Source: Sphingopyxis granuli NBRC 100800 (GTDB lineage: Bacteria; Pseudomonadota; Alphaproteobacteria; Sphingomonadales; Sphingomonadaceae). From it: a DNA stretch of 60,705 nt. The DNA lies in the NCBI RefSeq assembly GCF_001591045.1, contig NZ_BCUA01000017.1, positions 1 to 60,705 on the forward strand. The letters are read 5' to 3'. Positions 19,035 through 43,943 of the stretch are shown one piece after another. Numbering within the stretch: the stretch's first letter is position 1; every line of letters begins with the position of its first letter. The notes beneath the pieces were generated by a model. That model ran no database searches and was not told where the DNA came from. It saw nothing but the letters and a program-made list of their open reading frames with translations. The translations under genes and the position numbers were made by a program.

Positions 19035-21062
19035 ATGGGTCATGGCATTCGCATCGCGCTGCTTCTGTGGGCCGGGTCCGGCGCCATCGCGCCGGCGGCG
19101 GGGCAGGACGGCGGGGACGCTGGCAACCCGGTTTACGACCAGCGCTTCTTCGACCGGACGCAACCCTCGAACGCTTACGAGATGGTGGCGCTGCTTCCGG
19201 CCTTCACGATCGCCGAAGGCAATGCGGACGTGCGCGGCTATTCGGGCGTTGCGGGCAATGTCCTGATCGACGGGCAGCGCCCCGCCGGAAAGACCGACAC
19301 GCTCGAAGCGATCCTGAAGCGGCTTCCCGCGGCGCGCGTCGCCCGCATCGAACTGATACGCGCCGGGACGGCGGGCTACGACATGCAGGGCTATGCGCTG
19401 CTCGCCAACATCATCCTGGTGAAGACGGGCACGATCGGCGGCCGGATCGAGGCAGAGCAGGCGCTCTACCGGCACGGCCTGCGCGCGCCGCGCGTTTCGG
19501 CGCAGGCGACGTTCGACGGGCGCGGGCGGGTGACCGACCTCTTCGCCACCGTCTATCGCGAGATCGACGACGAGCATGGTTTCGGCGTCCGCAACCGCTT
19601 TGCGAGCGACGGCACGCCGCTGCGCCTCGTCGATTATGCGCAGCCCGAGGGCGCCGACATCGCGCAGGCGACGCTCGCCTATCGCCAGCCGCTGCTCGGC
19701 GGGACGCTTCGTCTCAACGGGCTGATCCAGGACAAACGCAAATTCGCCGATATCGCCCATGCCGTCACTTTCCCCGCGCCCGATGCCATCGTCGGCAGCG
19801 AGCGCAAGCATGCGCGCACCTATGAAGCGGGCGTGCGCTACGAACGCGCGCTCGGTCCCGCGGACGATCTCGAGCTGGTCGGAAGCTATCGGTCGGTGGC
19901 GACGGTCGGCCTCGATCGCGAATCGACCGCGTCGGAAAGCAGCGTCTCGGACGAGCGTTCGAACGCCAGCGAAGCGATCCTGCGCGCCGCGCTCCGCCAC
20001 CACCGGGGCGGCGCGACGATCGAGATCGGCGCCGAGGGCGCGGTTAACAGTCTCGATGGCCGGAATGCGTTGATAGAGGACGGCGAGCCGGTTCCGCTGC
20101 CCCAGGCCAACGTCCGGGTTGCCGAACGCCGCGCCGAATTGTTCGTGACCGCCAGCCGTCCGCTCGGCGCGCGGACCGTCGCGGAGTTCGGCATCAGATA
20201 CGAAATGTCCCGCCTGTCGCAGGCGGGCGACATCGACCTCGTCAAATCCTTCGCCTTCTGGAAACCGCGCGCGCGGCTTGTCTGGACGCCGACGCCGAAC
20301 CGGACGTTTCGCCTGCTGGCCGAGCGCGCGGTCGGCCAGCTCGATTTCGACGATTTCGTCGGCGCCGCGTCCTTGACCAGCGGAACGATCAGCGCCGGCA
20401 ATGCCGATCTGGAGCCCGACAGCCTCTGGCGCATCGAGCTGAGCTACGAACGCCGCTTCGGCGCCGGATCCGTCACCGTTGCCGCGCGCCGCGAATGGAT
20501 ATCCGATCTGGTCGACCAGCTTCCCGTCGTCGTCGATGGGACCCTGTACGACGCGGTCGGCAATATCGGCGCGGCACGCCGCGATACCGTCGAAGCGTCG
20601 CTCAAATGGCCGCTGGACGCGTTTGGCGCCAGGGGGGTCGTGGTGACTGCCGATCTCGTCGCGCGGCGCGGCCGGGCGACCGATCCCGCGACCGGCGAGC
20701 GGCGGCCCATCTCGGGCGACCTTCCGGTCGAGGCGCGGGTGGCGTTGACCCATGACATTCCGGCGTGGAAGCTGCGCTGGGGCGGCGGCTATGCCTTCGC
20801 GCGCACCGAGACCGCGTTCAAGGTCGAGGAGGTCGAGGCCGATCGTCTGGCCGGGCGGCTCGATCTGTTCATCGAATATCGCCCCGATGCGCGCTGGACG
20901 CTTCGCCTGTTCGGCCGGAATCTGACCGACAGCGCCGCGACGCGGACGCGCGACATCTATGCCGGCGTCCGCGGCGACGCCGCGCTGCGCTATCGCGAAC
21001 TGCGGGTGCTGCGCAGCGGCCGCTCTATCGGGTTGACCGTCCAGCGCAGCTTCGGCGGATAG
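19035..21062 (+). CDS. TonB-dependent receptor, short plug type
   Basis: This 675-residue outer-membrane protein has a signal peptide ending APAAGQ, then a plug domain: YEMVALLPAFTIAEGNADVRGYSG, NVLIDGQRPAGKTDTLEAIL and ARIELIRAGTAGYDMQGY. The usual IVVTG segment is absent. The remainder is an amphipathic-strand barrel whose last strand ends GLTVQRSFGG. It is smaller than classical receptors. It converges on the histidine-acid phytase gene with only 6 bp between stops, an arrangement that suggests a joint role, perhaps uptake of phytate or partly dephosphorylated products. That role is inferred only from position. Confidence 0.83.
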   Translation: MGHGIRIALLLWAGSGAIAPAAGQDGGDAGNPVYDQRFFDRTQPSNAYEMVALLPAFTIAEGNADVRGYSGVAGNVLIDGQRPAGKTDTLEAILKRLPAARVARIELIRAGTAGYDMQGYALLANIILVKTGTIGGRIEAEQALYRHGLRAPRVSAQATFDGRGRVTDLFATVYREIDDEHGFGVRNRFASDGTPLRLVDYAQPEGADIAQATLAYRQPLLGGTLRLNGLIQDKRKFADIAHAVTFPAPDAIVGSERKHARTYEAGVRYERALGPADDLELVGSYRSVATVGLDRESTASESSVSDERSNASEAILRAALRHHRGGATIEIGAEGAVNSLDGRNALIEDGEPVPLPQANVRVAERRAELFVTASRPLGARTVAEFGIRYEMSRLSQAGDIDLVKSFAFWKPRARLVWTPTPNRTFRLLAERAVGQLDFDDFVGAASLTSGTISAGNADLEPDSLWRIELSYERRFGAGSVTVAARREWISDLVDQLPVVVDGTLYDAVGNIGAARRDTVEASLKWPLDAFGARGVVVTADLVARRGRATDPATGERRPISGDLPVEARVALTHDIPAWKLRWGGGYAFARTETAFKVEEVEADRLAGRLDLFIEYRPDARWTLRLFGRNLTDSAATRTRDIYAGVRGDAALRYRELRVLRSGRSIGLTVQRSFGG

Positions 21063-21068
21063 GCCGTC

Positions 21069-22298
21069 TTATCCGCGCGGCGCGGCGATCCGGGCGAAAT
21101 CGCTCCAGCTGCACGCGGTCGCCGCGACCGAATCGCCGCACCCCGGAATGGGGAGATAGCGGCGGAACAGGGCATCGTCCGATCCCAGCGCTTCGAGGTT
21201 CCTCAACTGGTCCATCGTCTGCGCGCGATAGAAAGCGCGGACATAGCGGTCGCCCCTGGCATTGCTGACCAGCTCGAACCCCAGCGCGCTGCCGGGCGGA
21301 ACTTCGTCGGCGGGATAGCTCGGCACCTGCCAGTGCAGGTCGAAGAAACCGCCGAGGTCGGCGACGTTGGTGTCGTGTCCGGCAAGTAACGTCAGCCGCG
21401 CCGGATTCCGGTCACCGAGCGCCGTGACGATCTCGTGCACGATGGGCGCGGCAGCGGCAGCAGCGATATAGCCGGGACGGTTCGAATAACGGAACTTGAG
21501 CGGGTGGAAGCGCAGCAATTGCTCGATCTCGGCGCGGCTCACGCGGCCCCAGCCGACTTCGGCCATCGGCTTGCCTTCCAGATATTCGAGCAGCAGCGTC
21601 TGGCTGGCCGTCGATGCGACGGCGAGCGGGCCTTCGAGATCGGGACGATCGTGCGGCTGCGCGACCAGCCGGCTGGGTTCGGCGACGAGCGGACAGGCCG
21701 GCACGGCGCAATTCAGCACTTTCGCGAGCAGCGTCAGTTCGCCGCGATGGCGTTCGGTCTCGGCGGCGAGTCCGCCTTCGGGCGCTTGCGCCAGCGCCGC
21801 GTCATAGGCGCGATTGCCGTCGAACGACGCCGGGCCGCTGTCGAGACCATGAAAGATCGCGTCGTCGTCGGAACCGGCGGGGTGGGATATCGCCGCTGCG
21901 CAGCCGGGCATGAAGCCCGCCGCCCAGCTTCGCGCCGTTTCGATCGTGCGCTCCTTGTAACTCGCCTTCAGGACGATCGTGCCGGGCGCGGGGCATCCGC
22001 CGGGAAACAGACCGCGGGCGCCGAAATAGGCGCGGTCGCTTTCGCCGAGAAGCTTGACGCCCGCCGCGCCGCGCGGCGTCAACAGGCCGAAATCGACGGG
22101 CCAGCCGGACCATGTCTCGGACGAATAGCCCGGCGGGACGACGGCGGGCTTCGTCGGCGGACGGATGCCGTGCCGCATCAGCATTACGACCTTCTCCAGC
22201 TTCAGCGATGGCTGGCTGGCGGGGGGCGTGTCGGCGCCCGGCCCGGGCGCGGCGCAGGCCGCCAGCAGTGCGGTGGATAACAGCAGGATGCGCTTCAC
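21069..22298 (-). CDS. Histidine-acid phosphatase (AppA-type phytase), lipoprotein
   Basis: The 409-residue enzyme carries RHGIRPP (nucleophile His43, phosphate-binding Arg42 and Arg46) and LAGHDTN (His308-Asp309, proton donor), the paired signatures of branch-2 histidine phosphatases. GHDTN-VADLGGFF is close to AppA phytase. The N-terminus MKRILLLSTALLAAC is a lipoprotein signal with Cys15, so it should be anchored in a membrane facing the periplasm or surface. I prefer GTG 22298 because GGAG lies 6 bases upstream; ATG 22310 lacks a site. It would strip phosphates from myo-inositol hexakisphosphate or related esters. Upstream are two IolR-like operator variants. Confidence 0.9.
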   Translation of the reverse strand: MKRILLLSTALLAACAAPGPGADTPPASQPSLKLEKVVMLMRHGIRPPTKPAVVPPGYSSETWSGWPVDFGLLTPRGAAGVKLLGESDRAYFGARGLFPGGCPAPGTIVLKASYKERTIETARSWAAGFMPGCAAAISHPAGSDDDAIFHGLDSGPASFDGNRAYDAALAQAPEGGLAAETERHRGELTLLAKVLNCAVPACPLVAEPSRLVAQPHDRPDLEGPLAVASTASQTLLLEYLEGKPMAEVGWGRVSRAEIEQLLRFHPLKFRYSNRPGYIAAAAAAPIVHEIVTALGDRNPARLTLLAGHDTNVADLGGFFDLHWQVPSYPADEVPPGSALGFELVSNARGDRYVRAFYRAQTMDQLRNLEALGSDDALFRRYLPIPGCGDSVAATACSWSDFARIAAPRG

Positions 22299-22313
22299 GG
22301 GCCTCTCCATTGT

Positions 22314-22356
22314 GGAATAAATTTATCGACACTATATAAATAGGAAAATTTATTTC
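22314..22356. promoter_or_regulatory. IolR-like operator variants between phytase and PepSY genes
   Basis: GGAA-AATTTA-TTTC (22343-22356) matches GGAA-N6-TTCC with one mismatch. GGAA-TAAATT-TATC (22314-22327) matches with two. The surrounding AT-rich stretch stands out in GC-rich DNA and lies just upstream of the phytase start and 79 bp before the PepSY start. Confidence 0.55.
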
Positions 22357-22434
22357 ATCAATGCCATTTGCCGATCCGCCCGTGCGGTCGGTGACGTCAG
22401 CTTCCTATCAGCGGCCTTGTGGCAGGGAGGGCGT

Positions 22435-22749
22435 ATGAAAAAGACACTCCTCCTTGCGGTCGCTGTGACCGCTCTCACCGTCCCCGTCGCGATCTCCGCA
22501 AAGGACAAGGATGACAAGGCCGACCAACGCGCGGCGAGCGCCGCGCTGGCGCGCGGCGAAATCCTGCCGATCACCCGCGTCCTGGCGATCGCGACCGAGC
22601 GCGTCCCGGGCGACGTGCTCAAGGTCAAGCTGGAACGCGAATCCTTCGGGTTCAAATATGAGGTGAAAATCCTGACCGGCGGCGGCAGGGTGCGCGAGGT
22701 CGAAATCGACGCTAGGACCGGCCGGGTGATCAAGATCGAGGATGATTGA
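22435..22749 (+). CDS. PepSY domain protein, exported
   Basis: This 104-residue protein has a Sec signal peptide (MKKTLLLAVAVTALTVPVAISA) and one PepSY domain: ALARGEILPITRVLAIATERVPGD, then YEVKILTGGGRVREVEID and GRVIKIEDD. Start 22435 follows GGGAGGG. The gene ends one base into the response-regulator ATG (TGATG overlap), so the three genes PepSY, regulator and kinase form one translationally coupled unit. PepSY proteins often sit beside PhoP/PhoQ-like systems and may inhibit or sense through the kinase's periplasmic domain. It is divergent from the phytase. Confidence 0.88.
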   Translation: MKKTLLLAVAVTALTVPVAISAKDKDDKADQRAASAALARGEILPITRVLAIATERVPGDVLKVKLERESFGFKYEVKILTGGGRVREVEIDARTGRVIKIEDD

Positions 22750-23414
22750 TGCGCGCATTGGTGGTCGAGGACGACCCGGTCGTCGCTTCCGAACTTGTCC
22801 GCGGCATGACCGCGGCGGGCTTCGTCGTCGACCTTGCGGGTGACGGCCAGCAGGCGTGGTTCAACGGCGATGTCGAGGATTATGACGTCGCGATCGTCGA
22901 CCTCGGCCTGCCGCGGCTCGACGGGCTGTCGGTGGTCCGGCGCTGGCGCGAGGCGGGACGGAATTTCCCCGTCCTGATCCTGTCGGCGCGGGGCGAATGG
23001 ACCGACAAGGTTGCCGGGATCGAGGCGGGCGCCGACGATTATATGGCAAAGCCGTGGGCGATGGAGGAACTGGTGGCGCGCGTTCGCGGGCTGATCCGCC
23101 GTGCCGCCGGGCGGTCGAGCCCGATGATCGAGGCGGGGCCGCTGCGGATCGATACCCACCGGATGACCGCGACGCTCGACGGCGCGCTCGTCAAGCTCTC
23201 GCCGCTTGAGTATCGGCTGCTCGACTATCTCGCCCATCATGCCGGCCGCGCTGTGCCCGCGACCGAACTTTCCGATCATCTCTATGGCGACGCCGATACC
23301 GAAAACGCCAACGCGATCGAGGCCCTGATCGCGCGACTGCGGCGCAAGCTCGGCGCCGACACCATCCAGACCCGGCGCGGCTTCGGTTACGTCCTGCCGG
23401 CCGCCGCCGCGTGA
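22749..23414 (+). CDS. OmpR/PhoB-type response regulator
   Basis: The 221-residue protein has a receiver domain (acidic Asp8-Asp9, phosphorylated Asp51 in VDLGLPRLDG, Lys in AKPWAMEEL) and a C-terminal winged helix (about 125-221) with LSPLEYRLLDYLAHHAGR and RRGFGYVL. ATG 22749 shares its A with the stop of the PepSY gene, and its stop overlaps the GTG of the kinase (GTGA). It probably responds to the kinase next to it. Target genes are unknown. Its position next to a phytase promoter makes phosphate- or cation-linked control possible. Confidence 0.95.
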   Translation: MRALVVEDDPVVASELVRGMTAAGFVVDLAGDGQQAWFNGDVEDYDVAIVDLGLPRLDGLSVVRRWREAGRNFPVLILSARGEWTDKVAGIEAGADDYMAKPWAMEELVARVRGLIRRAAGRSSPMIEAGPLRIDTHRMTATLDGALVKLSPLEYRLLDYLAHHAGRAVPATELSDHLYGDADTENANAIEALIARLRRKLGADTIQTRRGFGYVLPAAAA

Positions 23415-24748
23415 CGCGACGCTCGCTCCGGCTTCGGTTGATCACGGGGGCCGGTGTGGCGATCGCCCTGGCGCTGATCGTCGCCTGGTTCGCAATGACC
23501 TGGCTGTTCAACGGCCATGTCGAGCGGCGCGTCGAGGACGAACTGCTGGTTCAGGTGCGGCCGCTCCTCGCCGATCTGCAACTGGCCCATGGTGTGCCGG
23601 TTGCGGGGTCCGAGCCCGCCGATCCGCGCTTCGCGGTTCCGGCCGGTGGTCTCTACTGGCAGGCGTCGACCGCTGCCGGCGCGATCCGCTCGATTTCGCT
23701 TTGGGACAGCCATCTGCCGACCACCGTGTCGGCGCCCGCCGACCGGTGGCGGACTCGCCGCGCTGACGGCCCCTTTGGCCAGCAGCTGCTGTTGATGGAA
23801 CGCGCGATTCGCCTGCAACCGCGGGAATCGCCGGTGATCGTTCAACTCGGCTACGACCTCGCCAAGCTGGCTCCGGCGCAGCGCGAGTTCGGGCGCGAGA
23901 TGGCGCTGTTCCTCGCATTGCTGTGGACCGTCCTCGCGCTTGCGGCCTGGGCGCAGGTTGGGCTGGGCCTCCGCCCGCTGCGGCGCGTCGGACAGGAGGT
24001 CGAGCGGCTGCGTCGCGATGCCGGGGCGCGTCTGGGCGGCGCCTATCCCCGTGAGCTGGCGCCGCTCACCGAATCGATCGATGCACTGGCCGACGCGCGC
24101 GAAGCCGATCTGGTGCGCGCCCGCCGCCGCGCCGCCGACCTTGCGCACGGACTCAAGACGCCGCTTGCCGCGCTTGCCGCGCAAAGCGCCAGGGTGCGCG
24201 AGAGCGGGGCGACGGCGATGGCCGACGGTCTCGATTCGTCGATCGCGGCGATGCGCGCGGCGATCGGCGGCGAACTGGCGCGGACGCGGATCAGCCTCGT
24301 TCCCGAAGGGCGCAGCACGATCGCGCTGTCGCTGATCGAGCGGCTCGTCGCGGTGATCGAGCAGACCGAGGCAGGCGAGCGCGTGGCGTTTTCGCTGGCC
24401 TGTGACGAAAGCGCGACGTTGCCGCTCGCGAGCGACGATGCCGCCGAACTGCTCGGCCCCCTGCTTGAGAATGCCGCGCGCCATGCGCGCCGCCTCGTCC
24501 GTGTCGCGGTCGAAGCTACCGGCGAGCGGCGGATGCTGGTTGTCGGCGACGACGGACCCGGTCTTGATGATGCGCAGCGCGAGGAAGCGATCCTGCGCGG
24601 CGCGCGCCTCGATTCGGGCGACGAGGGTCATGGGCTCGGCCTCGCCATCGCGCGCGAACTGGCCGAGGCGTCGGGCGGCGACCTGTCTCTCGCGCGCTCG
24701 CCGCTCGGCGGGCTTGAAGTCCGCGTCGGCTGGGCGCTATCCGCCTGA
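23411..24748 (+). CDS. Sensor histidine kinase, PhoQ-like layout
   Basis: This 445-residue membrane kinase starts at GTG 23411 in a GTGA overlap. Two membrane helices (about residues 13-35 and 160-185) frame a periplasmic domain of about 125 residues. HAMP and linker follow, then the HisKA helix AHGLKTPLAAL with phosphorylated His246, the N-box LLENAARHA, G1 DDGPG and G2 GHGLGLA. All ATP-lid motifs are intact. The periplasmic domain faces the compartment where the phytases and the PepSY protein act. The signal is unknown. Confidence 0.94.
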   Translation: MTRRSLRLRLITGAGVAIALALIVAWFAMTWLFNGHVERRVEDELLVQVRPLLADLQLAHGVPVAGSEPADPRFAVPAGGLYWQASTAAGAIRSISLWDSHLPTTVSAPADRWRTRRADGPFGQQLLLMERAIRLQPRESPVIVQLGYDLAKLAPAQREFGREMALFLALLWTVLALAAWAQVGLGLRPLRRVGQEVERLRRDAGARLGGAYPRELAPLTESIDALADAREADLVRARRRAADLAHGLKTPLAALAAQSARVRESGATAMADGLDSSIAAMRAAIGGELARTRISLVPEGRSTIALSLIERLVAVIEQTEAGERVAFSLACDESATLPLASDDAAELLGPLLENAARHARRLVRVAVEATGERRMLVVGDDGPGLDDAQREEAILRGARLDSGDEGHGLGLAIARELAEASGGDLSLARSPLGGLEVRVGWALSA

Positions 24749-24818
24749 TCCTTCCGTCAGCCCGGTGTCAGATCGCGCGCCGCGCCGCCCGTTGCCGCGC
24801 GTCTCCGCAAGCTATTGT

Positions 24819-24862
24819 GCAAGATATATTCTATTTGTCTTGCAATATAGAATAATTGTGCC
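24819..24862. promoter_or_regulatory. IolR-like operator variants before TonB receptor
   Basis: GCAA-GATATA-TTCT (24819-24832) and AGAA-TAATTG-TGCC (24849-24862) each differ from GGAA-N6-TTCC at two positions. They are AT-rich islands in the promoter region of the receptor at 24919. These are the weakest members of the set. Confidence 0.35.
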
Positions 24863-24918
24863 ATTATGCTGCCCGAACGAGCGCGGCAGGGAGCCGTGCC
24901 GGGGGAGGAGAGTCCATA

Positions 24919-28751: not shown

Positions 28752-28767
28752 TCTATCCTCTTCCGGT

Positions 28768-28868: not shown

Positions 28869-28898
28869 GTTTTTTCGGATGAATGGGGGAGAATATAT

Positions 28899-29771: not shown

Positions 29772-29823
29772 CCATTTCATTTCTGGCGCCGTGTGAAACA
29801 TATGTTGCAAACATTCTAAAAGT

Positions 29824-29837
29824 GGAATAAGCGTTTC
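29824..29837. promoter_or_regulatory. IolR-like operator before iolC
   Basis: GGAA-TAAGCG-TTTC has one mismatch to GGAA-N6-TTCC and ends 13 bp before the iolC start, where bound repressor would block the promoter or early elongation. Confidence 0.6.
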
Positions 29838-29850
29838 AGGCCAAGGAAGG

Positions 29851-35328: not shown

Positions 35329-36837
35329 ATGAGACAGATTGACCCCTTCATCGCCGGCGATGCCGCCGGCGGCGGTTCCGTGCGCCCGGAAAACGGACGC
35401 GCCGGCGATGTGTTCAACCCGAGCACCGGACAGGTCCAGGCACGCGTCGCTTTCTCCACCGCCGCCGATCTCGACCGCGCGGTCGTCGCGGCCGCCGCGG
35501 CGCAGCCCGGTTGGGCGGCGACCAATCCGCAGCGCCGCGCGCGCGTCCTGTTCCGTTTCCGCGAACTGCTCGAGGCGAACATGCAGGATCTCGCGGAACT
35601 GCTGGCGAGCGAGCATGGCAAGGTCGTCGCCGACGCGCGGGGCGACGTTCTGCGCGGGCTGGAAGTGATCGAATTTTCGTGCGGCATCCCGCATGCGATG
35701 AAGGGCGAATATACGCAGGGTGCCGGACCGGGAATCGACGTCTATGCCATGCGTCAGCCCCTCGGCGTGGTCGCGGGTATCACGCCATTCAACTTTCCCG
35801 CGATGATCCCGATGTGGATGTTCGGCCCCGCGATCGCGGCAGGCAACGCCTTCATCCTCAAGCCCAGCGAACGCGACCCGTCGGTGCCGGTGCGCCTCGC
35901 CGAACTGATGCTTGAGGCCGGGCTGCCCGAAGGCATCCTCCAGGTCGTCCACGGCGACAAGGAAATGGTCGACGCAATCCTGGATCATCCGGCGATTTCG
36001 GCGGTCAGCTTCGTGGGATCCTCCGACATCGCGCACTATGTCTATGGGCGCGGTGCCGCTGCCGGCAAGCGTGTGCAGGCGATGGGCGGCGCCAAGAATC
36101 ACGGCATCGTCATGCCCGACGCCGACCTCGACCAGGTGGTGCACGATCTGTGCGGCGCCGCCTTCGGTTCGGCAGGCGAGCGCTGCATGGCGCTGCCCGT
36201 CGTGGTGCCGGTCGGCGACGCGACCGCCGACGCGCTTCGCGAGCGACTGATCCCGGCGATGGCCGCGCTCAAGGTCGGCGTGTCGACCGATCCCGATGCG
36301 CATTATGGCCCGGTCGTCAACGCCGCGCACAAGGCGCGTATCGAGGACTGGATCCAGACCGGGGTCGATGAAGGCGCCGAACTGGTCGTCGATGGCCGCG
36401 GTCTGGTCCTGCAGGGACATGAGCACGGATTCTTCGTCGGCCCAACGCTGTTCGACCGCGTCACGACTGCCATGCGCGCCTATCGCGAGGAAATCTTCGG
36501 CCCGGTGCTGCAGATCGTCCGCGCCCCCGATTTCGAGACCGCTTTGCGCCTGCCGAGCGCACACCAATATGGCAATGGCGTGTCGATCTTCACGCGCAAT
36601 GGTCACGCCGCGCGCGAATTCGCGCAGCGCGTCAATGTCGGCATGGTCGGCATCAACGTGCCGATCCCGGTGCCGGTCGCCTATCATAGCTTCGGCGGCT
36701 GGAAGCGCTCGGGTTTCGGCGACACCAATCAATATGGGATGGAGGGCGTGCGCTTCTGGACGAAGGTCAAGACGGTAACCCAGCGCTGGCCCGATGGCGG
36801 CGAAGGGGACAACGCCTTTCTCATTCCCACCTCCTGA
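35329..36837 (+). CDS. mmsA: CoA-acylating methylmalonate-/malonate-semialdehyde dehydrogenase
   Basis: This 502-residue aldehyde dehydrogenase converts malonate semialdehyde from the inositol route to acetyl-CoA and CO2, with NAD and CoA. The N-terminal strand FNPSTGQVQARV, GVVAGITPFNFPAMIPMWM, MGGAKNHGIVMPDA and the catalytic Cys286 in GSAGERCMALPV are diagnostic of the MmsA/IolA group. HSFGGWKRSGFGDTNQYG is near the C-terminus. It is the fifth gene of the iolCDEBA operon, and 97 bp with an operator-like site separate it from the next gene. Confidence 0.95.
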   Translation: MRQIDPFIAGDAAGGGSVRPENGRAGDVFNPSTGQVQARVAFSTAADLDRAVVAAAAAQPGWAATNPQRRARVLFRFRELLEANMQDLAELLASEHGKVVADARGDVLRGLEVIEFSCGIPHAMKGEYTQGAGPGIDVYAMRQPLGVVAGITPFNFPAMIPMWMFGPAIAAGNAFILKPSERDPSVPVRLAELMLEAGLPEGILQVVHGDKEMVDAILDHPAISAVSFVGSSDIAHYVYGRGAAAGKRVQAMGGAKNHGIVMPDADLDQVVHDLCGAAFGSAGERCMALPVVVPVGDATADALRERLIPAMAALKVGVSTDPDAHYGPVVNAAHKARIEDWIQTGVDEGAELVVDGRGLVLQGHEHGFFVGPTLFDRVTTAMRAYREEIFGPVLQIVRAPDFETALRLPSAHQYGNGVSIFTRNGHAAREFAQRVNVGMVGINVPIPVPVAYHSFGGWKRSGFGDTNQYGMEGVRFWTKVKTVTQRWPDGGEGDNAFLIPTS

Positions 36838-36845
36838 GCAAAAAC

Positions 36846-36859
36846 GAAACAAATCTTCC
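36846..36859. promoter_or_regulatory. IolR-like operator before the OPA-family transporter
   Basis: GAAA-CAAATC-TTCC differs from GGAA-N6-TTCC at one position, inside an AT-rich patch between mmsA and the transporter. It suggests that the transporter unit has its own IolR-controlled promoter. Confidence 0.5.
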
Positions 36860-36934
36860 ATTCTTATATAAAATGAAATAGCATCATGTCCGGACACCCG
36901 AAACAACAGGGGCGCCGGATGCGGGAGAGAGGCG

Positions 36935-38269
36935 ATGCTCAGATATTTCGCGACGGGTCCGGACCTGCCGGTCAGAACCGACGACGGCGTCGACGGCGCG
37001 TTCCGGCGCTATCGGATGCGGATCATCATGGCGATCACGCTTGCCTATGCCGTCAGTTATACGTGCCGGCTCGCGATCAATATCGTCAAGAAGCCGCTGA
37101 TCGATCAGGGTATCTTCACCCCGCTCGAACTCGGCATGATCGGCTCGGCGCTGTTTTATACTTACGCCGCCGGCAAGCTGATCAACGGCTTCGTCGCCGA
37201 CCACAGCAACGTGAAGCGTCTGTTCGCGGCCGGGATGATCCTGTCGGCGCTTTGCAACATCGCGATGGGTTTCTCGACGCTGTTCTGGGCGACGCTGCTG
37301 ATCTGGGGGCTCAACGGCTGGTTCCAGAGCTATGGCGCGCCGGCGTGCGTCGTCGCGCTGGCCAGCTGGTTCTCGAACCGGGAGCGCGGGCGCTATTATG
37401 GCATCTGGTCGACCGCGCATTCGATCGGCGAGGGGCTGACCTTTGCGGTCGTCTCGGCGGTCGTCGCGATCGGCGGCTGGCGGTGGGGTTTCTGGGGTCC
37501 GGGTGTCGCGGCGGTGCTCGCGGGCGTCGCGGCCTATTACGCGATGGCCGATCGGCCCCGCGCGCTCGGCTTGCCGACCGTCGCCGACTGGCGGAACGAT
37601 CATTATGCCCCGCCCGCGGAGGATGTGCCTGAGCGCGGGGTGTTCGCCACCCAGCTATCGATCCTGAAAATACCGGCGGTCTGGATTCTCGCGCTGGCGA
37701 GCGCGGCCAACTATGTGACGCGCTACGCGATCAACAGCTGGGGAATCCTCTATTTGCAGGAGGCGCGTGCCTATTCGCTGGCGGAAGCGGGTGCGATGCT
37801 CACCGCCAGCACGCTGGCGGGGGTTGCGGGCGCGGTCGCCTTCGGCTTCGTCTCGGACAAATTCTTCGGCGCGCGCCGTCCGCCCGCCAATCTGCTCTTC
37901 GGGGTCATCGAACTCGTCGGGCTTTTTCTGCTGTTCTTCGGTCCCAACAATCCGGTCATCGTCTTCATAGCGGTGATCCTGTTCGGACTCGGCATGACCG
38001 GCCTCGTCACTTCGCTTGGCGGGCTGTTCGCGATCGATATCTGCCCGAAGCGCGTCGCCGGCGCCGCACTCGGCCTGGTCGGCGTGTTCAGCTATATCGG
38101 CGCGGCGGTGCAGGAACAGGTATCGGGGGCGCTGATCGACGCCAACATGCATATGATAAATGGTACGAACGTCTATGATTTCGGGCCGGTGATCTGGTTC
38201 TGGATCGGTAGTTCGGTGCTGGCGACGTTGCTGGCGACGACGCTATGGAACACGAAGCTCCGCGACTGA
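36935..38269 (+). CDS. Organophosphate:phosphate antiporter family (GlpT/UhpT-like) MFS carrier
   Basis: This 444-residue inner-membrane protein with about 12 helices aligns by eye with GlpT over its whole length: LNGWFQSYGAPACVVALASW and RPRALGLPTVADWRNDHY have clear GlpT counterparts. The residues of GlpT that hold the substrate phosphate are kept: Arg45 (YTCRLAI), His162 (STAHSIGEG) and Arg263 (YVTRYAINSW), corresponding to GlpT Arg45, His165 and Arg269. A phosphorylated substrate, rather than free inositol, is therefore likely. The stop overlaps the PhoD-like start (TGATG). Inositol monophosphate in exchange for phosphate is the proposed role. Confidence 0.87.
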   Translation: MLRYFATGPDLPVRTDDGVDGAFRRYRMRIIMAITLAYAVSYTCRLAINIVKKPLIDQGIFTPLELGMIGSALFYTYAAGKLINGFVADHSNVKRLFAAGMILSALCNIAMGFSTLFWATLLIWGLNGWFQSYGAPACVVALASWFSNRERGRYYGIWSTAHSIGEGLTFAVVSAVVAIGGWRWGFWGPGVAAVLAGVAAYYAMADRPRALGLPTVADWRNDHYAPPAEDVPERGVFATQLSILKIPAVWILALASAANYVTRYAINSWGILYLQEARAYSLAEAGAMLTASTLAGVAGAVAFGFVSDKFFGARRPPANLLFGVIELVGLFLLFFGPNNPVIVFIAVILFGLGMTGLVTSLGGLFAIDICPKRVAGAALGLVGVFSYIGAAVQEQVSGALIDANMHMINGTNVYDFGPVIWFWIGSSVLATLLATTLWNTKLRD

Positions 38270-39684
38270 TGGAAAAGACGATGCATCGCCGCAATCTTCT
38301 GCGCGGGGGCGCTGCCCTTGCTTTTCTCGCCGCGCTGCCGCGCCGGCTCTATGCCGCCGCGGTCGGCTATCCACGCTTGCTCGACGGACCGATGATCGGC
38401 GCGACGACGCCGGATAGCTTCACCGTCTGGTCGCGCGCGAGCGGGACGTTCGGGGTCGCGGTCGAATATGCGACGCGCCGCGACTTCGCCGATGCGAAAA
38501 CAACCGCGCCGGTCGCCGCGACGCAGGACAACGACCTGTGCACGGTGGTCGAGGTTACCGGCCTAAAGCCCGACACCGACTATTATTATCGCATCGAGAC
38601 CGATGGAATCGACGACCGCCACCAGCCGCTTGCCTTTCGTACCCGCACCGCGCCCGACCGGCCGCGCCCGATCCGGATCGCCTTCGGCTCGTGCGCGCGG
38701 GTCCAGCTCTATCCCGAGCAGCCGGTGTTCGACGCGGTCGCCGCGATGGAGCCCGATCTCTTCCTCTGGCTCGGCGACAATATCTATGCCGACAGTGACA
38801 GCGAGACCGCCTATTCGGCGCTCTATTCGCGCCAGCGGGGCGTGTCGGCGCTTGTTCCGCTGCTCCGCTCGGTGCCGCAACTCGCGATCTGGGACGATCA
38901 TGATTTCGGCTATAATGACTCGGATCGTCACAACGGCGTGAAGGCGATGACCCGCCGCCTGTTCGACCGCTGGTGGGCGAATCCCGCTTCCGGCCTGCCC
39001 GACACGCCTGGAATTTTCTTCCGTCACAGCTTTGGTCCCGTCGACATCTTCATGCTCGACGGGCGCTACCACCGCGATCCGCCATCGGCCCCCGACGGCC
39101 CCGAAAAGACGATGCTCGGTGCCGGGCAGAAGGCGTGGCTGAAGCGCGAGCTCAAGGCATCGAAAGCGGCGTTCAAGATCCTTGCCTCGGGCACCGGCTG
39201 GTCGCTTGCCGAAAAGGGCGGCGACAGCTGGGCCGCCTATCTCCACGAGCGCAACGAGATCCTTGATTTCATCCGGGACGAAGGAATCGGCGGTTGCCTC
39301 GGCATTTCGGGCGACGTCCATCAGGGCGAAGTCAACTGCGTGCCCTGGTCCGAACGGGGCGGCTATGATTTCTATGATCTGGTGAGTTCGGGGCTGGCGC
39401 AATATCTGGCCCCCAAATTCGTCGACCAGCATCCCGAGGTGCGATTGCGCGCGCCGTGGGTGCGCAGCACCAATTTCGGGCTGCTCGAATTCAGCTTTGA
39501 TCCCGAACCGCGCGTCGAACTCAGCGTTCGCGACGTGATCGGGGCATCGGCGTCGGGCGAGCCCGTCTGCCTTCGCGCCGCCGACCTCGTCAACGGCAAG
39601 CAGAGCTGGCGCGCCGTGATCGATCCGGATGAACTCGAACGGCGCGAGCGTGTCGAGCGCGGCGGCAGCTATTATGGGGAGTGA
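38269..39684 (+). CDS. PhoD-like alkaline phosphatase, Tat-exported
   Basis: The 471-residue metallophosphatase begins MEKTMHRRNLLRGGAALAFL, a twin-arginine signal, so it folds before export to the periplasm. A PhoD N-terminal Ig-like domain (about 45-135) precedes the catalytic domain with IAFGSCARVQLYPEQ, LWLGDNIYAD, AIWDDHDFGYND, FMLDGRYHRD and CLGISGDVHQGE, which supply the metal ligands. The start at 38269 overlaps the transporter stop. It hydrolyses phosphomono- or diesters. In this operon it could remove phosphate from inositol phosphates left by the phytases or release alternative substrates. Confidence 0.92.
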   Translation: MEKTMHRRNLLRGGAALAFLAALPRRLYAAAVGYPRLLDGPMIGATTPDSFTVWSRASGTFGVAVEYATRRDFADAKTTAPVAATQDNDLCTVVEVTGLKPDTDYYYRIETDGIDDRHQPLAFRTRTAPDRPRPIRIAFGSCARVQLYPEQPVFDAVAAMEPDLFLWLGDNIYADSDSETAYSALYSRQRGVSALVPLLRSVPQLAIWDDHDFGYNDSDRHNGVKAMTRRLFDRWWANPASGLPDTPGIFFRHSFGPVDIFMLDGRYHRDPPSAPDGPEKTMLGAGQKAWLKRELKASKAAFKILASGTGWSLAEKGGDSWAAYLHERNEILDFIRDEGIGGCLGISGDVHQGEVNCVPWSERGGYDFYDLVSSGLAQYLAPKFVDQHPEVRLRAPWVRSTNFGLLEFSFDPEPRVELSVRDVIGASASGEPVCLRAADLVNGKQSWRAVIDPDELERRERVERGGSYYGE

Positions 39685-39689
39685 ATAGG

Positions 39690-39890
39690 ATGCGCTTCGG
39701 GATGGCGCCGATCGCGCGCGACGGGTTCGTGGCGGTGAAGGCGCGACTGCCGCTTGCAATGCCGGAGGAGGCGGTCGGGACCCACCGGATCGACCAGAAC
39801 GACGGGCGCAAGCTGCGCGGCGGCCAACCGGTCAAGCGCCAGGCGATCGAACGGCGACGCGAACGCTGTCGACAGGCTGTCGGGGCGTGA
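39690..39890 (+). CDS. Small ORF coupled between PhoD-like and Gfo/Idh genes
   Basis: The 66-codon frame (MRFGMAPIARDGFVAV... ending RQAVGA) is not recognised. It has a good Shine-Dalgarno (GGGGAG, 8-base spacing), strongly GC-biased third codon positions, and a GTGA stop-start overlap with the following dehydrogenase, whose own ribosome site is weak. It may be a real small protein or a leader that couples translation. The C-terminal half is Arg-rich and has no signal peptide. It could also be a decayed remnant. Confidence 0.38.
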   Translation: MRFGMAPIARDGFVAVKARLPLAMPEEAVGTHRIDQNDGRKLRGGQPVKRQAIERRRERCRQAVGA

Positions 39891-41011
39891 CGCGGCCCGC
39901 GCTCAATATCGCGCTGATCGGCAGCGGCTTCATGGGCCGCGCGCATGCCCTCGCCTTTGCGGCGGCCGACCGCACCTTCGACTTGCCGCGCGCGCCGCAC
40001 GTCGCGCTCCTTGCCGACCGTGACCTGCCGAAAGCGACCGCGGCCGCGGCATCGCTCGGAATAGCGCGGGCGAGTGGCGACTGGCGCGAGGCTATCGACG
40101 ATGCGGGCATCGACCTCGTCGCCATCGCGACCCCGAACAGGCTTCACGCCCCGATCGCCATCGCCGCTCTCGAGGCGGGCAAGGCGGTCTATTGCGAAAA
40201 GCCGCTGGCGACGACGATCGCCGAGTCCGAGGCGATGACCGCGGCCGCCGCGGCATCGGGGCTGCCCACCGCGGTCGGCTTCACCTATCTCTACAATCCG
40301 ATGATCGTCCTTGCGCGCGAGTTGATCGCGGGCGGAGAGATTGGGGAGGTAACCGCCTTTCGCGGCATTCACGCGGAGGATTTCATGGCTTCGGCCGACG
40401 CGCCGTTCAACTGGCGCTGCGAGCCCGATCAGGCGGGCGGCGCGCTCGCCGACATCGGCAGCCATATCATTGCGATGGCGCGCCATCTGGTGGGCGATAT
40501 CGCCGTCGTGTCGGGCCGCCTTCATACCGCCTATCCGACGCGCCGCGATGCGCAGGGCACCGACCGCGCGGTGACGGTCGACGATCAGATGGATGCCGTG
40601 ATCGAATTCGCCAGCGGTGCGACGGGGACGCTCGCGGCGAGCTGGATCGCGAGCGGGCACAAGATGGGGCTGGCATTCGAGGTCAGCGGGACACGCGGAT
40701 CGATCGCCTTCACGCAGGAGCGGTTCAACGAACTCAGGCTCTATCGCTCCGGACCGGGGCGCACCAATGGCTTCACGACGATCTGCGCGGGGCCGGAGCA
40801 TGGCGACTATGGCGCCTTCTGTCCGGCGCCGGGGCATCAGATCGGCTACAACGACCTGAAGACGATCGAGGTCAAGGCCGTCGTGGAGGCGGCCGCAGGC
40901 TTGCCGTCGGCCGCGAAGAGCTTCGCCGACGCGCTGGCGGTCGAGCGGGTCGCCGACGCAATCCGCCGGTCGCATCGCGAAGGATGCTGGATCGGACTTC
41001 AGACGGCGTAG
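39887..41011 (+). CDS. Gfo/Idh/MocA family dehydrogenase (second inositol-type)
   Basis: The 374-residue oxidoreductase starts at GTG 39887. The Rossmann motif GSGFMGRAHALAFAAA, ATPNRLHAPIAIAALEAGK and YCEKPLATT (catalytic Lys) define the family, and GGALADIGSHIIAMARHLVGD carries the Asp and His of the active site. It is longer than IolG and closer to dehydrogenases that act on inositol isomers or substituted inositols. At the end of the inositol operon it may oxidise scyllo- or D-chiro-inositol, products expected from soil inositol hexakisphosphate isomers. It converges on the monophosphatase gene with a 13-bp overlap. Confidence 0.88.
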   Translation: MTRPALNIALIGSGFMGRAHALAFAAADRTFDLPRAPHVALLADRDLPKATAAAASLGIARASGDWREAIDDAGIDLVAIATPNRLHAPIAIAALEAGKAVYCEKPLATTIAESEAMTAAAAASGLPTAVGFTYLYNPMIVLARELIAGGEIGEVTAFRGIHAEDFMASADAPFNWRCEPDQAGGALADIGSHIIAMARHLVGDIAVVSGRLHTAYPTRRDAQGTDRAVTVDDQMDAVIEFASGATGTLAASWIASGHKMGLAFEVSGTRGSIAFTQERFNELRLYRSGPGRTNGFTTICAGPEHGDYGAFCPAPGHQIGYNDLKTIEVKAVVEAAAGLPSAAKSFADALAVERVADAIRRSHREGCWIGLQTA

Positions 41012-41799
41012 GCCGGCGCCAGCGCCGCCAGCATTTCCTCATGAATTGCGGGCGTCGATGCCAGCACGGTTCCGTTCATCAGGTCGAGCGCGTTGCCGCG
41101 CGTGTCGGTCACGACGCCGCCCGCCTCGCGGACGATCACGACCCCGGCCGCCATGTCCCAGGCGCTGACGCTCTGCTCCCAATAGGCGTCGTGGCGGCCG
41201 CAGGCGACCCAGGCCATGTCGATCGCTCCCGCCCCAAGGCGGCGGATGCCCGTGACACGCGGGGTCAGCCGCTCCATCTCGGCATAGAATTGTTCGTGGT
41301 TCGGCTTGGTCGCAAAGGGAATGCCGACGCCCAGCACCGATTCCTCGATCGTCGTGCGCGTCGAGATATGGATGCGACGTTCGCCGAGCCATGCGCCGCC
41401 GCCGGTTTCCGCGCAGAACAGCTCGTCCATCGCGGGGACATAGGTGACCCCCGCGACGACCTCGCCTTGCTTCGCCAGCGCGATGTTGACCGCGAAGAGT
41501 GGGGATCCTGTCAGGAAGTTGGTCGTACCGTCGAGCGGATCGACCACCCACACATGGTCGGTGTCGCTGCCGGGCGTCAGCCCGCCTTCCTCACCGAGGA
41601 AGCCATAGTCGGGGGCATGGGCCATCAGCCGCTCACGGACGGTCGCCTCAGCCTTCAGGTCGGCCTCGGTGAACATGTCGGCGGCGCCGGCCTTGCTATG
41701 GATCGTGAGCGTGGCGATGCGCTCGCGATCGGCGATCAAACCTTCGCCGGCGGCGTGGGCGGCGGCGATCATGGCGGAAATAAGGGGTGACATTGGCAT
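40999..41799 (-). CDS. Inositol monophosphatase family protein
   Basis: This 266-residue Mg-dependent enzyme has the family motifs FLGEEGG, WVVDPLDGTTNF (Asp87 and Asp90 region) and AWDMAAGVVIVREAGG. No signal peptide is present, so it acts in the cytoplasm on inositol-1-phosphate-type monoesters, giving free inositol and phosphate. ATG 41799 and 41793 are both possible; no strong ribosome site is visible and the 5' leader is short. Because the locus encodes a carrier that keeps phosphate-binding residues, this enzyme offers the missing last dephosphorylation step. It is divergent from the beta-propeller phytase across two operator-like sites. Confidence 0.92.
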   Translation of the reverse strand: MPMSPLISAMIAAAHAAGEGLIADRERIATLTIHSKAGAADMFTEADLKAEATVRERLMAHAPDYGFLGEEGGLTPGSDTDHVWVVDPLDGTTNFLTGSPLFAVNIALAKQGEVVAGVTYVPAMDELFCAETGGGAWLGERRIHISTRTTIEESVLGVGIPFATKPNHEQFYAEMERLTPRVTGIRRLGAGAIDMAWVACGRHDAYWEQSVSAWDMAAGVVIVREAGGVVTDTRGNALDLMNGTVLASTPAIHEEMLAALAPAYAV

Positions 41800-41803
41800 G
41801 GAA

Positions 41804-41847
41804 TGAATATACGTTCTGTTTTATAGAAAAGATAGAAAAATTATTCT
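41804..41847. promoter_or_regulatory. IolR-like operator variants between IMPase and beta-propeller phytase
   Basis: TGAA-TATACG-TTCT (41804-41817) and AGAA-AAATTA-TTCT (41834-41847) each differ from GGAA-N6-TTCC at two positions but keep the GAA-N6-TTC core. The AT-rich block is shared by the divergent phosphatase and phytase genes. Confidence 0.45.
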
Positions 41848-41936
41848 GAAATGATGTTGCGGGCTGCTTTTGCGGCCGTTGTCGGACGATCGGGTATTGG
41901 CTCGATTGCGATCTGGAAGAGAAAAGGGAGGGGTGC

Positions 41937-43943
41937 GTGAAAACGAGTCTATTTGCAATCGCCGCCGGGCTGGCGGCTGTTCCGGCAGGCGTCATGGCAC
42001 AGCAGGCTGCTTCGATTCCGGTCGTCGCCGCCTCCGCCGAAACGCAGGCGACCGACGGATCCGGTGCCGATGGCGCCGTGGTCGTCGCCGACCCCGCCGA
42101 TGCATCGCGTTCGTTGATTCTCGCGGGCGCCGAATCCGCCGGAATCGATGTCTTCGATCTGGCCGGGAAGCGCCTGGGGACGCACAAGGTTGGCAATATT
42201 CGCGCGCTCGATCTGCGCGCCGATGCCGCGCCGGGCGGGGGACCGTTGCTGGCCGGGCTCGATGGCAAGGATAATGCGCCCAAACTCTTTCGTGTGATGG
42301 CCGGTGGTGCCCCGGCGCCGCTCGCGCTGACCGGAATAGAGCCTGGGATGACGGTCGCGGGGCTCTGCTTCTCGCGCAGCCATCGCGACGATACCCTTTA
42401 TCTGTTTCTCGTCGGTGACAAGGGAGAGATCGAGCAGTGGGGATTGTCGTCCGAAGCGTCGGGCGCCATGAACGGGCGGATTGCGCGGCGCTGGTCGCTC
42501 GGGTCGGAAATCGGCTATTGCGCCGCCGACGACCGCGGCTCGGTCTATTTCTCGCAGGAAGCCGTGGGGGTATGGCGCTTCGCCGCCGAACCCGAGGCCG
42601 AGATCGCACCCGAGATCGTCGATATCGTCCGCCTCGGCCACATCACCGAAGAAGCGAAGGGTGTCGGCATCGCCGCCGACGGCCGCCTGCTTGTTTCGGA
42701 CGCGTCGGTCAATCGGCTGAACATTTACGATCCCCTCGATGGCTATGCCTATCTTGGCTCGGTGGCGCTCGCGGCGGGTACCGACCAGGTCGAGGATGGC
42801 GGCAGCGTCACGGTGGCAGGGCCGGTCGTGCTGGTCGCAGACGACGATAATTCGCCTGAGGAACCGAATTTCAAGATTGCGGGCTGGCAGGCGATCCTCG
42901 CTGCGGCGGGGCTTCCCGAACGGCCGGCGGTGCCGGCGCCCGAGACGATGCCGCTCGCGCGCCCGACAGTCGAGACAGTGCCGGTGGAGACCGGCGGCGA
43001 CGCCGCAGACGATCCGGCGATCTGGATCAATCCCGCCGACCCCGCGCAAAGCGTCGTGATCGGGACGCAAAAGCAATCCGGACTCTATGTGTATGATCTG
43101 GAAGGGAAAGTCATTCAGTTCCTTCCCGACGGGCGCATGAACAACGTCGATTTGCGAAGCGGCTTCCGCCTCGGCGGCCGCGACGTGACGCTCGTGACGG
43201 CCAGCAATCGCACGACCAAAGGCATCTCGATCTATGTCCTCGATCCCGCGACGCGCAAGCTGACCGACGTTGCGGACGGGTTGCAGGACACCGGTTTCAA
43301 GGATCCCTATGGCCTCTGCATGTATCGCAGCGCGAAGACGAAAAAGACCTATGTTTTCGTCAATCAGAGCGACGGCAAGATGCGCCAGTGGGAGTTGGTC
43401 GCGACGCCCGCCGGCAAGGTGCGGGCGAAACTAGTGCGCGACCTGCCTTTCGAAACGCAGGTCGAGGGCTGTGTCGCCGATGACGAGACCGGCATGCTTT
43501 ATACCGGTGAAGAGGATGTCGGCATTTGGCGCGAGGGCGCTGAACCGCGCGGTGGTCCCGCACGCACGACGCTGGCGAAAGTCGCCGACAACCCGGCGCT
43601 CAAGGACGATATGGAGGGGATCGGACTCTATGCCATGGCCGGCGGTCGGGGCTATCTCGTCGTATCGAGCCAGGGCAACGACAGCTATGCGGTGTTCCGT
43701 CGTGAAGGCGACAATGCCTATGTCGGCTCATTCCGCATCGGCGCCGACATGGCGGCGGGGATCGACGGTGTATCCGAAACCGACGGCCTCGACGTCACCA
43801 GCATGGCCGCGGGGCCGGCCTTTCCCCACGGCCTGATGGTCGCGCAGGATGGCCGAAATGTTTCGCCTCCCGAGAATCAGAATTTCAAACTGGTACCGTG
43901 GGAGCGGGTGGCGAAGGCGCTCGGTCTTGAAATCGGCCAATAG
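41937..43943 (+). CDS. Two-domain beta-propeller phytase (3-phytase)
   Basis: This 668-residue exported enzyme (signal peptide ending GVMAQQ) starts at GTG 41937 after GGGAGGGG. The C-terminal half is a full six-blade propeller with the two phytase signatures, DAADDPAIW (from Asp355) and NNVDLR (Asn402-Arg407), followed by KDPYGLCMYR and ENQNFKLVPWERV. The N-terminal half (about 25-340) repeats the same fold, with EEPNFKIAGWQAIL as a matching closing strand, but its signatures are eroded. Dual-domain phytases of this form are known, with the first domain assisting the second. It releases phosphate from calcium phytate in the periplasm or outside. Confidence 0.93.
   Translation: MKTSLFAIAAGLAAVPAGVMAQQAASIPVVAASAETQATDGSGADGAVVVADPADASRSLILAGAESAGIDVFDLAGKRLGTHKVGNIRALDLRADAAPGGGPLLAGLDGKDNAPKLFRVMAGGAPAPLALTGIEPGMTVAGLCFSRSHRDDTLYLFLVGDKGEIEQWGLSSEASGAMNGRIARRWSLGSEIGYCAADDRGSVYFSQEAVGVWRFAAEPEAEIAPEIVDIVRLGHITEEAKGVGIAADGRLLVSDASVNRLNIYDPLDGYAYLGSVALAAGTDQVEDGGSVTVAGPVVLVADDDNSPEEPNFKIAGWQAILAAAGLPERPAVPAPETMPLARPTVETVPVETGGDAADDPAIWINPADPAQSVVIGTQKQSGLYVYDLEGKVIQFLPDGRMNNVDLRSGFRLGGRDVTLVTASNRTTKGISIYVLDPATRKLTDVADGLQDTGFKDPYGLCMYRSAKTKKTYVFVNQSDGKMRQWELVATPAGKVRAKLVRDLPFETQVEGCVADDETGMLYTGEEDVGIWREGAEPRGGPARTTLAKVADNPALKDDMEGIGLYAMAGGRGYLVVSSQGNDSYAVFRREGDNAYVGSFRIGADMAAGIDGVSETDGLDVTSMAAGPAFPHGLMVAQDGRNVSPPENQNFKLVPWERVAKALGLEIGQ

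Follow-up and report, generated by a model that had tools for sequence, protein, structure and literature searches.

A linked phytase and inositol-catabolism island in Sphingopyxis granuli with a candidate inositol-phosphate carrier

Phytate makes up a large pool of organic phosphorus in soils and in plant feed; discussion of phytases usually treats them as phosphorus tools. Pairs of a phytase and a TonB-dependent receptor, in which a β-propeller phytase (BPP) is encoded beside the receptor, are known in Gram-negative bacteria and have been discussed for phosphorus supply. Here we describe an island at positions 19,035 to 43,943 of a 60,705-nucleotide stretch of Sphingopyxis granuli NBRC 100800 DNA (the window, which is the complete contig C17 of a 4.26 Mb draft genome); unlike those pairs, its phytases and receptors are tied to an inositol pathway and the regulator of that pathway. 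In Caulobacter crescentus, IolR, a regulator of the RpiR family, and a GGAA-N6-TTCC motif control the inositol genes, with one copy of the motif mediating iolC repression (Boutte 2008, PMC2597717). The Caulobacter module (iolCDEBA, idhA, IolR and ibpA-iatA-iatP) shares with the island its catabolic enzymes, an RpiR-type IolR and the motif, which is found at iolC and at the gene for the dehydrogenase. It differs in its inositol ABC transporter, which lies at a separate locus, and in the available text of PMC2597717 phytase appears once, among the references, while "TonB" and "monophosphatase" do not appear. Inositol catabolic gene clusters (IolCatGC) have been catalogued across bacteria, with phytate named as a natural source of inositol, and as described in the accessible parts of that work these clusters, unlike the window, do not include phytases or inositol-phosphate carriers (Weber and Fuchs 2022, PMC9430895). 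Organisms that combine phytase activity with an iol cluster, and the use of phytate as sole carbon source, are also in print (PMC12838507, PMC4070688, PMC11219571); the available portions of the first two describe no single locus, shared regulator or inositol-phosphate carrier of the kind seen in the window. The parts of the island are of known kinds, and it is already published that bacteria can grow with phytate as their carbon source. The linked, co-regulated locus and the proposed inositol-phosphate carrier, with its exchangeable SuhB or pyrophosphate (PPi)-dependent kinase partner, were not found in the open-access literature, subscription journals lying mostly outside the search, and a search of that literature aimed at a bacterial inositol-phosphate importer turned up none.

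We read the island as a dedicated phytate assimilation module, in which phytase, inositol-phosphate carrier, SuhB and the iol pathway stand under IolR and local two-component control, and place the probability of this reading at roughly 0.73. An earlier note on this DNA had listed two outer-membrane receptors, two phytases, a PhoD-like phosphatase, an OPA-type carrier, an inositol monophosphatase (IMPase) and the full inositol pathway; profiles, motifs and structure matches recovered all of them where that note had placed them or close by (Table 1). Outside that list are a PepSY/response regulator/kinase operon (22435-24748), an RpiR/SIS regulator and a Gfo/Idh dehydrogenase. In the proposed mechanism one or both TonB-dependent receptors (TBDT1 and TBDT2) would take phytate or lower inositol phosphates, perhaps metal-chelated, across the outer membrane. 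The BPP and a histidine acid phytase (HAP), both with export leaders, would remove phosphates in the periplasm, typically to low inositol phosphates, and the PhoD-like enzyme may assist on mono- or diesters. The carrier would swap inositol monophosphate for cytosolic phosphate (Pi), and SuhB, which is probably cytosolic since no leader was seen, would hydrolyze the monophosphate to inositol. IolG-E-D-B-C/J-A, assigned by curated families, would carry inositol into central metabolism. IolR is predicted to control the iol genes, the carrier, SuhB, both phytases and TBDT2, and the local two-component system, acting through a direct repeat of 11-bp period, may control TBDT1, itself and TBDT2. The phytases would respond to an inositol catabolite via IolR, beyond phosphate starvation alone.

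Conservation was assessed in 149 genomes of the family to which the window organism belongs (G000 being the window's own genome), with iolD called by curated cut-off, the carrier by E≤1e-60 and tandem phytase as two propeller matches in one frame. Raw iolD matches at E≤0.001 were dropped, as 149/149 family and 14/14 control genomes match at that level, presumably through related thiamine pyrophosphate enzymes such as acetolactate synthase. By these calls iolD is present in 6 genomes, the carrier in 4 and the tandem two-propeller phytase in 4; the latter two occur in the same 4 genomes (G000, G081, G083 and G067), all of them iolD-positive, which bears out the co-occurrence of phytase and iol genes on which the earlier note had staked its proposal. 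Confinement of the carrier to iolD genomes has a chance of ~8e-7, calculated by hand, if genomes are independent, which they are not. G075 and G141 have iolD without the carrier; the iol locus of G075 has a different MFS gene near iolC, and neither OPA nor BPP is matched in the G075 genome. Conservation of gene order among sphingomonads, which the note had put forward as a check, is seen in G081, where 15 genes, from response regulator to BPP, have the same order and strand as in the window, with TBDT1 and HAP present in swapped positions and TBDT1 divergent from the two-component genes. G083 and G067 are rearranged, each having most of the set but neither PhoD nor Gfo. In G083, whose 39 kb stretch was compared, the gene order is different and IolG is duplicated. 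G067 resembles it across two contigs, and its TBDT1 lies on another contig; in both, SuhB directly follows iolA and the carrier lies beside TBDT2, near the phytases. The island is patchy, since G042 and G122, from the same genus as the window, have neither true iolD nor the carrier. Mere adjacency of two units, a phytase locus that scavenges phosphorus and a locus for inositol, with no functional coupling, would fit the wide occurrence of phytases without iol genes (BPP in 68/149 family genomes vs true iolD in 6/149). Against it stand the joint occurrence of carrier and tandem phytase in iolD-positive genomes, an association that survives rearrangement and spans classes, and regulatory sites shared between the two sets of genes, and we regard it as very improbable.

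An alignment of the carrier was also used to scan GTDB representative genomes, and the best 80 of 164 candidates were taken forward as loci, all 80 of which were tallied and which hold 83 carrier copies. Locus context was up to 10 kb on each side of the carrier, with genes called by home-made profiles of 2-6 sequences each. These loci are mutually related, with near-duplicates (L076/L077 and L086/L088), and G067 and L062 are apparently one record. They include Sphingopyxis, Caulobacter, Phenylobacterium, Brevundimonas, Luteimonas, Pseudoxanthomonas, Rhodanobacter, Arenimonas and Steroidobacter, and also bins labelled Acidobacteria, KSB1 and Neomarinimicrobiota. L076, a bin named Phenylobacterium, and L077, named Rhodanobacter, have identical context scores, and one is probably mis-binned. 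A SuhB gene was called in 45/80 loci and a phytase in 30/80. The locus counts missed phytases because of the 10 kb limit, and a genome-wide search found them: among 30 genomes selected from the 80 (mostly isolates, all proteobacterial, with no non-proteobacterial bin), 29 encode a BPP 0.2-18.2 kb from the carrier on the same contig; in the remaining genome, that of Pleomorphomonas (L102), an acid phytase lies 130 bp from the carrier. Acid phytase was found in 20 of these 30 genomes. The set recurs in other genomes, and the island is a conserved module and not a chance arrangement.

The carrier protein, 98% identical to its Sphingopyxis flava counterpart, matches the GlpT structure 1pw4 at E 1.3e-57, GlpT being the nearest solved carrier. 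Its residues R45, K81, H162 and R263 align with R45, K80, H165 and R269 of GlpT, which we take to be phosphate-site residues, both arginines binding phosphate, and they are kept in 82/83, 79/83, 83/83 and 83/83 carrier copies, respectively. The near invariance of these four positions argues for a phosphorylated substrate. That inositol is the carried moiety is indicated by the genomic context, in which two unrelated inositol pathways and a SuhB or PfkB partner accompany the carrier. Classical iolCDEBA genes, one or more, are present at 50/80 loci, and at least one of IolM, IolN and IolO, which belong to the unrelated Thermotoga-type route, at 15 others (at least two at 13), with zero overlap; curated cut-offs were passed by all three in L096 and by IolN and IolO in L106. 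The antiporters GlpT, UhpT and UhpC share the sequence family and the four aligned residues; unlike them, the window carrier falls below their cut-offs, and its genomic partners point to inositol phosphate. These features suggest an inositol-phosphate:phosphate antiporter that would import inositol phosphate rather than free inositol, a point that the earlier note, though it listed the carrier, had not made. Tandem OPA carrier genes were observed in the non-proteobacterial bins L106, L109 and L116, as if for two inositol phosphates.

The partner enzymes are mutually exclusive near the carrier. Within 3 kb, SuhB is found at 42/80 loci and a PfkB kinase at 28/80, with both at 0 and neither at 10; of the latter, three have SuhB 3.1-4.5 kb off, and L040 and L078 end early at contig ends. 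About 15 loci with both would be expected if the two were independent, a figure weakened by the kinship of the loci. IolA, carrier and SuhB are immediate neighbors in 32/83 carrier copies. In a SuhB tree the island SuhBs, except that of L102, lie apart from three paralogues in the window genome (L120-L122); the rooting is arbitrary and the tree was not used as evidence. The strongest rival holds that phytases and PhoD complete dephosphorylation outside the cell, that what the carrier brings in is free inositol or some other neutral polyol, and that SuhB is a bystander. The spot after iolA is where an inositol transporter would be expected, the OPA-less locus has another MFS gene near iolC, and a periplasmic PhoD could take off the last phosphate. 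Set against these are the phosphate-site residues, almost invariant in 83 copies, the presence of SuhB or the PPi-kinase within 3 kb at 70/80 loci, and the additional sugar-type ABC transporter in the two clusters examined for it (L106 and L112), and we judge free-inositol import unlikely.

The PfkB gene lies within 130 bp of the carrier at 28/80 loci and belongs to the family of TM0415, a PPi-dependent myo-inositol kinase of Thermotoga maritima with an inositol Km of 12 mM (Nagata 2018, PMC5931981). Because of this Km the TM0415 authors raise the possibility of another true acceptor, and the available part of that paper treats the kinase direction. The window, which has SuhB, lacks this kinase, as no second PfkB was found among the window genes scanned. 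The L096 copy matches 1vk4 at E 5e-47 and 5ysp at 5e-46. The TM0415-type residues K171, R229 and R232 (RXGRGD motif) are present in 27/27 complete copies, and both hydrophobic positions are large in 25/28 copies, one of the 28 being truncated. The Steroidobacter/Povalibacter group pairs classical iol genes with the PfkB kinase in place of SuhB, so that which partner is present does not follow from the catabolic route. By analogy of position, a kinase at SuhB's usual place behind a phosphate-type importer may be an inositol-phosphate phosphorolytic enzyme. Our broader proposal, that this OPA subfamily is a cross-phylum inositol-phosphate:Pi antiporter and that, where SuhB is lacking, the TM0415-type kinase runs inositol-P + Pi -> inositol + PPi, is tentative, and we consider it possible but somewhat doubtful.

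The RpiR-type regulator is encoded beside the iol genes, and predicted GGAA-N6-TTCC operators are found at them, as would be expected of an IolR regulon. The extended palindrome TGGAAY-N4-RTTCCA occurs once in the 4.26 Mb draft genome, at iolG/iolR. A site profile was trained on 18 distinct exact sites upstream of iolG, rpiR and iolC and used at a threshold of 12 bits, which only 7/814,527 positions reach in a coding-sequence null. Since the profile was trained on their upstream regions, the sites at iolG (37/82), rpiR (38/38) and iolC (38/45) are not independent tests. For genes outside the training set, sites exceed dinucleotide-shuffle expectations at BPP (14/20 vs 0.27), OPA (32/83 vs 0.75), TBDT2 (4/12 vs 0.09) and SuhB (6/45 vs 0.28); these counts overlap, as in some genomes a single divergent region lies between BPP and either OPA or TBDT2. 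Upstream of Gfo a site was found in 1/8. No site of at least 12 bits was found upstream of IolD (0/43), IolE (0/50), IolB (0/44), IolA (0/47), PhoD (0/37) or HK, the histidine kinase (0/30), together 0/251, nor of the response regulator, RR (0/34), or TBDT1 (0/28). The earlier note had inferred operators shared by phytases and iol genes, and in the window IolR-type sites do precede both phytases, TBDT2, the carrier and the iol genes. Two simpler scans were replaced by the profile and upstream test: a two-mismatch motif scan of the window was weakly enriched (20 vs 10.7 expected), and exact GGAA-N6-TTCC occurs 2 times vs 0.58 expected, one copy being off-island at 53604. The profile itself also scores off-island, for example at 835, 9002, 53602 and 54840 (8-13 bits), and once more within the coding sequence of RpiR at 29127 (13.6 bits).

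A second type of site lies before TBDT1, TBDT2 and the two-component operon. Exact copies of a GTCAG-N6-GTCAG direct repeat number 2 in the window vs 0.02 expected. The repeat is common to 22/26 non-redundant TBDT1 upstream regions (shuffles ≤3), and its exact form is found upstream of TBDT1 in 24/28 and of the response regulator in 31/34 (shuffle expectation 0.00), often in one shared divergent region; TBDT1 and the operon of the regulator are separated in the window, each with its own copy. TBDT2 of the window bears both signals, IolR-like sites and the GTCAG repeat; the other 11 of the 12 TBDT2 upstream regions lack the repeat. With at most one mismatch the repeat lies upstream of OPA in 7/83 (0.80 expected), and the 6 non-redundant HAP upstream regions compared have no common repeat. 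The island is probably not the single regulon proposed in the earlier note, given that TBDT1 and the two-component operon lack IolR sites and have a different direct repeat. The 11-bp period of the repeat resembles the Pho box. The draft genome has 16 exact sites, 7 of them on two contigs (C46 and C82), and among 12 such loci inspected one site (L136, G000:C46) lies ~120 bp upstream of another response-regulator-like gene, of 225 aa; PhoB was set aside as owner of the repeat with these sites in view. The L136 copy hints that the site type is shared by this regulator class, and the evidence favors, without settling, a PmrA/QseB-type regulator as owner.

The response regulator and kinase are found in 29/80 carrier loci, which, with UhpC the top-scoring named OPA model (though below cut-off), would fit a carrier acting not as a transporter but as a UhpC-like receptor for the adjoining two-component system. 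We give this very little credence: the PhoQ-like kinase seems to have a periplasmic part of its own, no regulator-kinase pair was called within the 10 kb on each side at 51/80 carrier loci, and the window carrier has an IolR site and sits among catabolic genes.

Both phytases are well supported as family members. HAP has intact active-site motifs, and its best solved matches are histidine acid phosphatases/phytases (E 4e-52); in BPP the C-terminal propeller has intact active-site motifs and matches the solved phytase 1poo at E 3e-84, whereas the N-terminal propeller is degenerate. Several NCBIfam models were not reached: HAP scores 222.9 vs a cut-off of 585 for the AppA model PRK10172, the PhoD-like protein 49.2 vs 1000 for the PhoD equivalog, and SuhB lies below the cut-offs of the IMPase and HisN equivalogs. 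The names of the AppA, PhoD, IMPase and OPA members consequently rest on Pfam family, motif and structure match. IolG, IolE, IolD, IolB, IolC and IolA each pass curated NCBIfam cut-offs, and with the aldolase step supplied by the IolC fusion the iol set is complete. The Gfo/Idh/MocA dehydrogenase perhaps acts on another inositol isomer.

In the window the genes for the PhoD-like protein and the carrier overlap; PhoD is present in 37/80 carrier loci, and GlpT is the nearest solved carrier. On these grounds the locus might feed mainly on phosphodiesters such as glycerophosphoinositol and phosphatidylinositol headgroups, PhoD cleaving them, the carrier importing glycerol-3-phosphate and/or inositol-1-phosphate, and the phytases being added for phosphorus scavenging. 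A phytase lies within 18.3 kb of the carrier in 30/30 checked genomes, however, PhoD and Gfo are both missing from the G083 stretch, and IolR sites precede phytase and carrier and not PhoD, which is possibly read through from the carrier. A phosphodiester locus is in our view distinctly improbable.

Several observations weigh against a dedicated phytate module with an inositol-phosphate antiporter. Beta-propeller phytases are common in the family regardless of the island, as the counts above show, and AppA-type enzymes stop at Ins(2)P, a poor substrate of known IMPases. The carrier lies below all named OPA NCBIfam cut-offs (UhpC, 259.4 vs 564; GlpT, 233.1 vs 632.55; UhpT, 151.6 vs 497). IolR sites of 12 bits are lacking in 51/83 OPA upstream regions, and upstream of HAP a site is present in 1/10, namely the window's. 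At 7/80 loci no iol, IolM/N/O, phytase or SuhB gene was called within the 10 kb on each side, three of them (L103, L111 and L118) having PfkB, and Thermotoga has the PPi-kinase with, to our knowledge, no OPA carrier. TBDT1 relatives lie inside the G081 and G083 islands and on a separate contig in G067, but relatives of TBDT1 and the kinase (46-52% identity) are also found in carrier-less genomes, for example ~1.2 kb apart in G046 (C18) and on separate contigs in G085; the TBDT1/kinase unit is therefore not phytate-specific and can stand alone. With these points taken into account, the interpretation of a linked phytase-iol island is supported.

Table 1. Positions of island genes and predicted regulatory sites in the window
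Feature	Position	Strand	Basis or remarks
GTCAG-N6-GTCAG direct repeat, upstream of TBDT1	18930..18945	-	Exact
TonB-dependent receptor 1 (TBDT1)	19035..21062	+	PF00593; plug domain weak, below cut-off
Histidine acid phytase (HAP), AppA type, probable lipoprotein	21069..22310	-	PF00328; RHGIRPP and HDTN motifs; lipobox-like leader by eye
IolR-like operator, ~30 bp before HAP start	22341..22358		18.3 bits
GTCAG direct repeat, before PepSY-regulator-kinase operon	22396..22411	+	1 mismatch
PepSY-domain protein with leader	22435..22749	+	PF03413; ORF listed from TTG 22417, likely start ATG 22435
OmpR/PmrA-type response regulator	22746..23414	+	PF00072, PF00486; PmrA model best yet below cut-off
PhoQ-like sensor histidine kinase	23411..24748	+	PF02518; PhoQ model below cut-off
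GTCAG direct repeat, before TBDT2	24756..24771	+	Exact
Two IolR-like operators, 30 bp apart, before TBDT2	24817..24864		13.1 and 18.4 bits
TonB-dependent receptor 2 (TBDT2)	24919..27459	+	TIGR01782 above cut-off; ORF listed from TTG 24856, start probably ATG 24919
IolG, myo-inositol 2-dehydrogenase	27768..28751	-	TIGR04380 above cut-off
IolR operators (predicted) at iolG/iolR	28766..28812		Perfect palindrome 28796-28811
RpiR/SIS regulator, IolR type	28821..29771	+	PF01380, PF01418
Two IolR-like operators before iolC	29793..29839		14.5 and 12.1 bits
IolC kinase fused to DUF2090 aldolase (IolJ role)	29851..31806	+	NF047869 and TIGR04382 above cut-off
IolD	31803..33638	+	TIGR04377, 952.7 bits, above cut-off
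IolE	33635..34528	+	TIGR04379 above cut-off
IolB	34528..35319	+	TIGR04378 above cut-off
IolA, CoA-acylating (methyl)malonate-semialdehyde dehydrogenase (MMSDH)	35329..36837	+	TIGR01722 above cut-off
IolR-like operator before carrier gene	36844..36861		17.7 bits
OPA-type MFS carrier, proposed inositol-phosphate:Pi antiporter	36935..38269	+	OPA family by 1pw4 match
PhoD-like phosphatase/phosphodiesterase	38245..39684	+	PF09423, PF16655; twin-arginine-like leader RRNLLRGG by eye
Gfo/Idh/MocA dehydrogenase	39887..41011	+	PF01408/PF22725; levoglucosan dehydrogenase model below cut-off
Inositol monophosphatase (SuhB/IMPase)	40999..41799	-	PF00459; GEE, DPxDGTxNF and WDxAAG motifs intact; PDB IMPases/SuhB matched
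IolR-like operators in SuhB/BPP divergent region	41798..41849		14.7, 12.9 and 12.7 bits, first two overlapping
Tandem β-propeller phytase (BPP)	41937..43943	+	PF02333, two stretches

Other observations concern the composition and surroundings of the island. In 3 kb windows G+C changes from ~66-70% in 1-24000 to ~63-67% in 24000-60705, the change near 24 kb falling inside the island. Just past the right island end, ARAGORN reports a tRNA-Tyr with the unusual anticodon ATA (44781-44867, minus strand), possibly a decayed tRNA or an integration scar. Three adjacent DUF4437/ChrR-cupin-like genes follow a TonB receptor at 52795-56032, and a transposase-like fragment with an integrase core (rve) lies close to the contig end (59969-60664, minus strand). 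A minus-strand open reading frame at 22350-23279 (309 aa) was rejected as a gene; it has no Pfam or NCBIfam match and is overlapped by the PepSY and response regulator genes.

Taken as a phytate assimilation module, the island implies that many bacteria may use phytate as a carbon source, with phytases placed under an inositol regulator. It suggests that the inositol ring enters the cell still phosphorylated, and it singles out the carrier as a concrete candidate for a protein that transports inositol phosphate in bacteria. The same loci would give PPi-dependent inositol kinases a physiological context: if the proposed reverse TM0415-type reaction is true, it would save the phosphoester as pyrophosphate and would account for the high inositol Km of TM0415.

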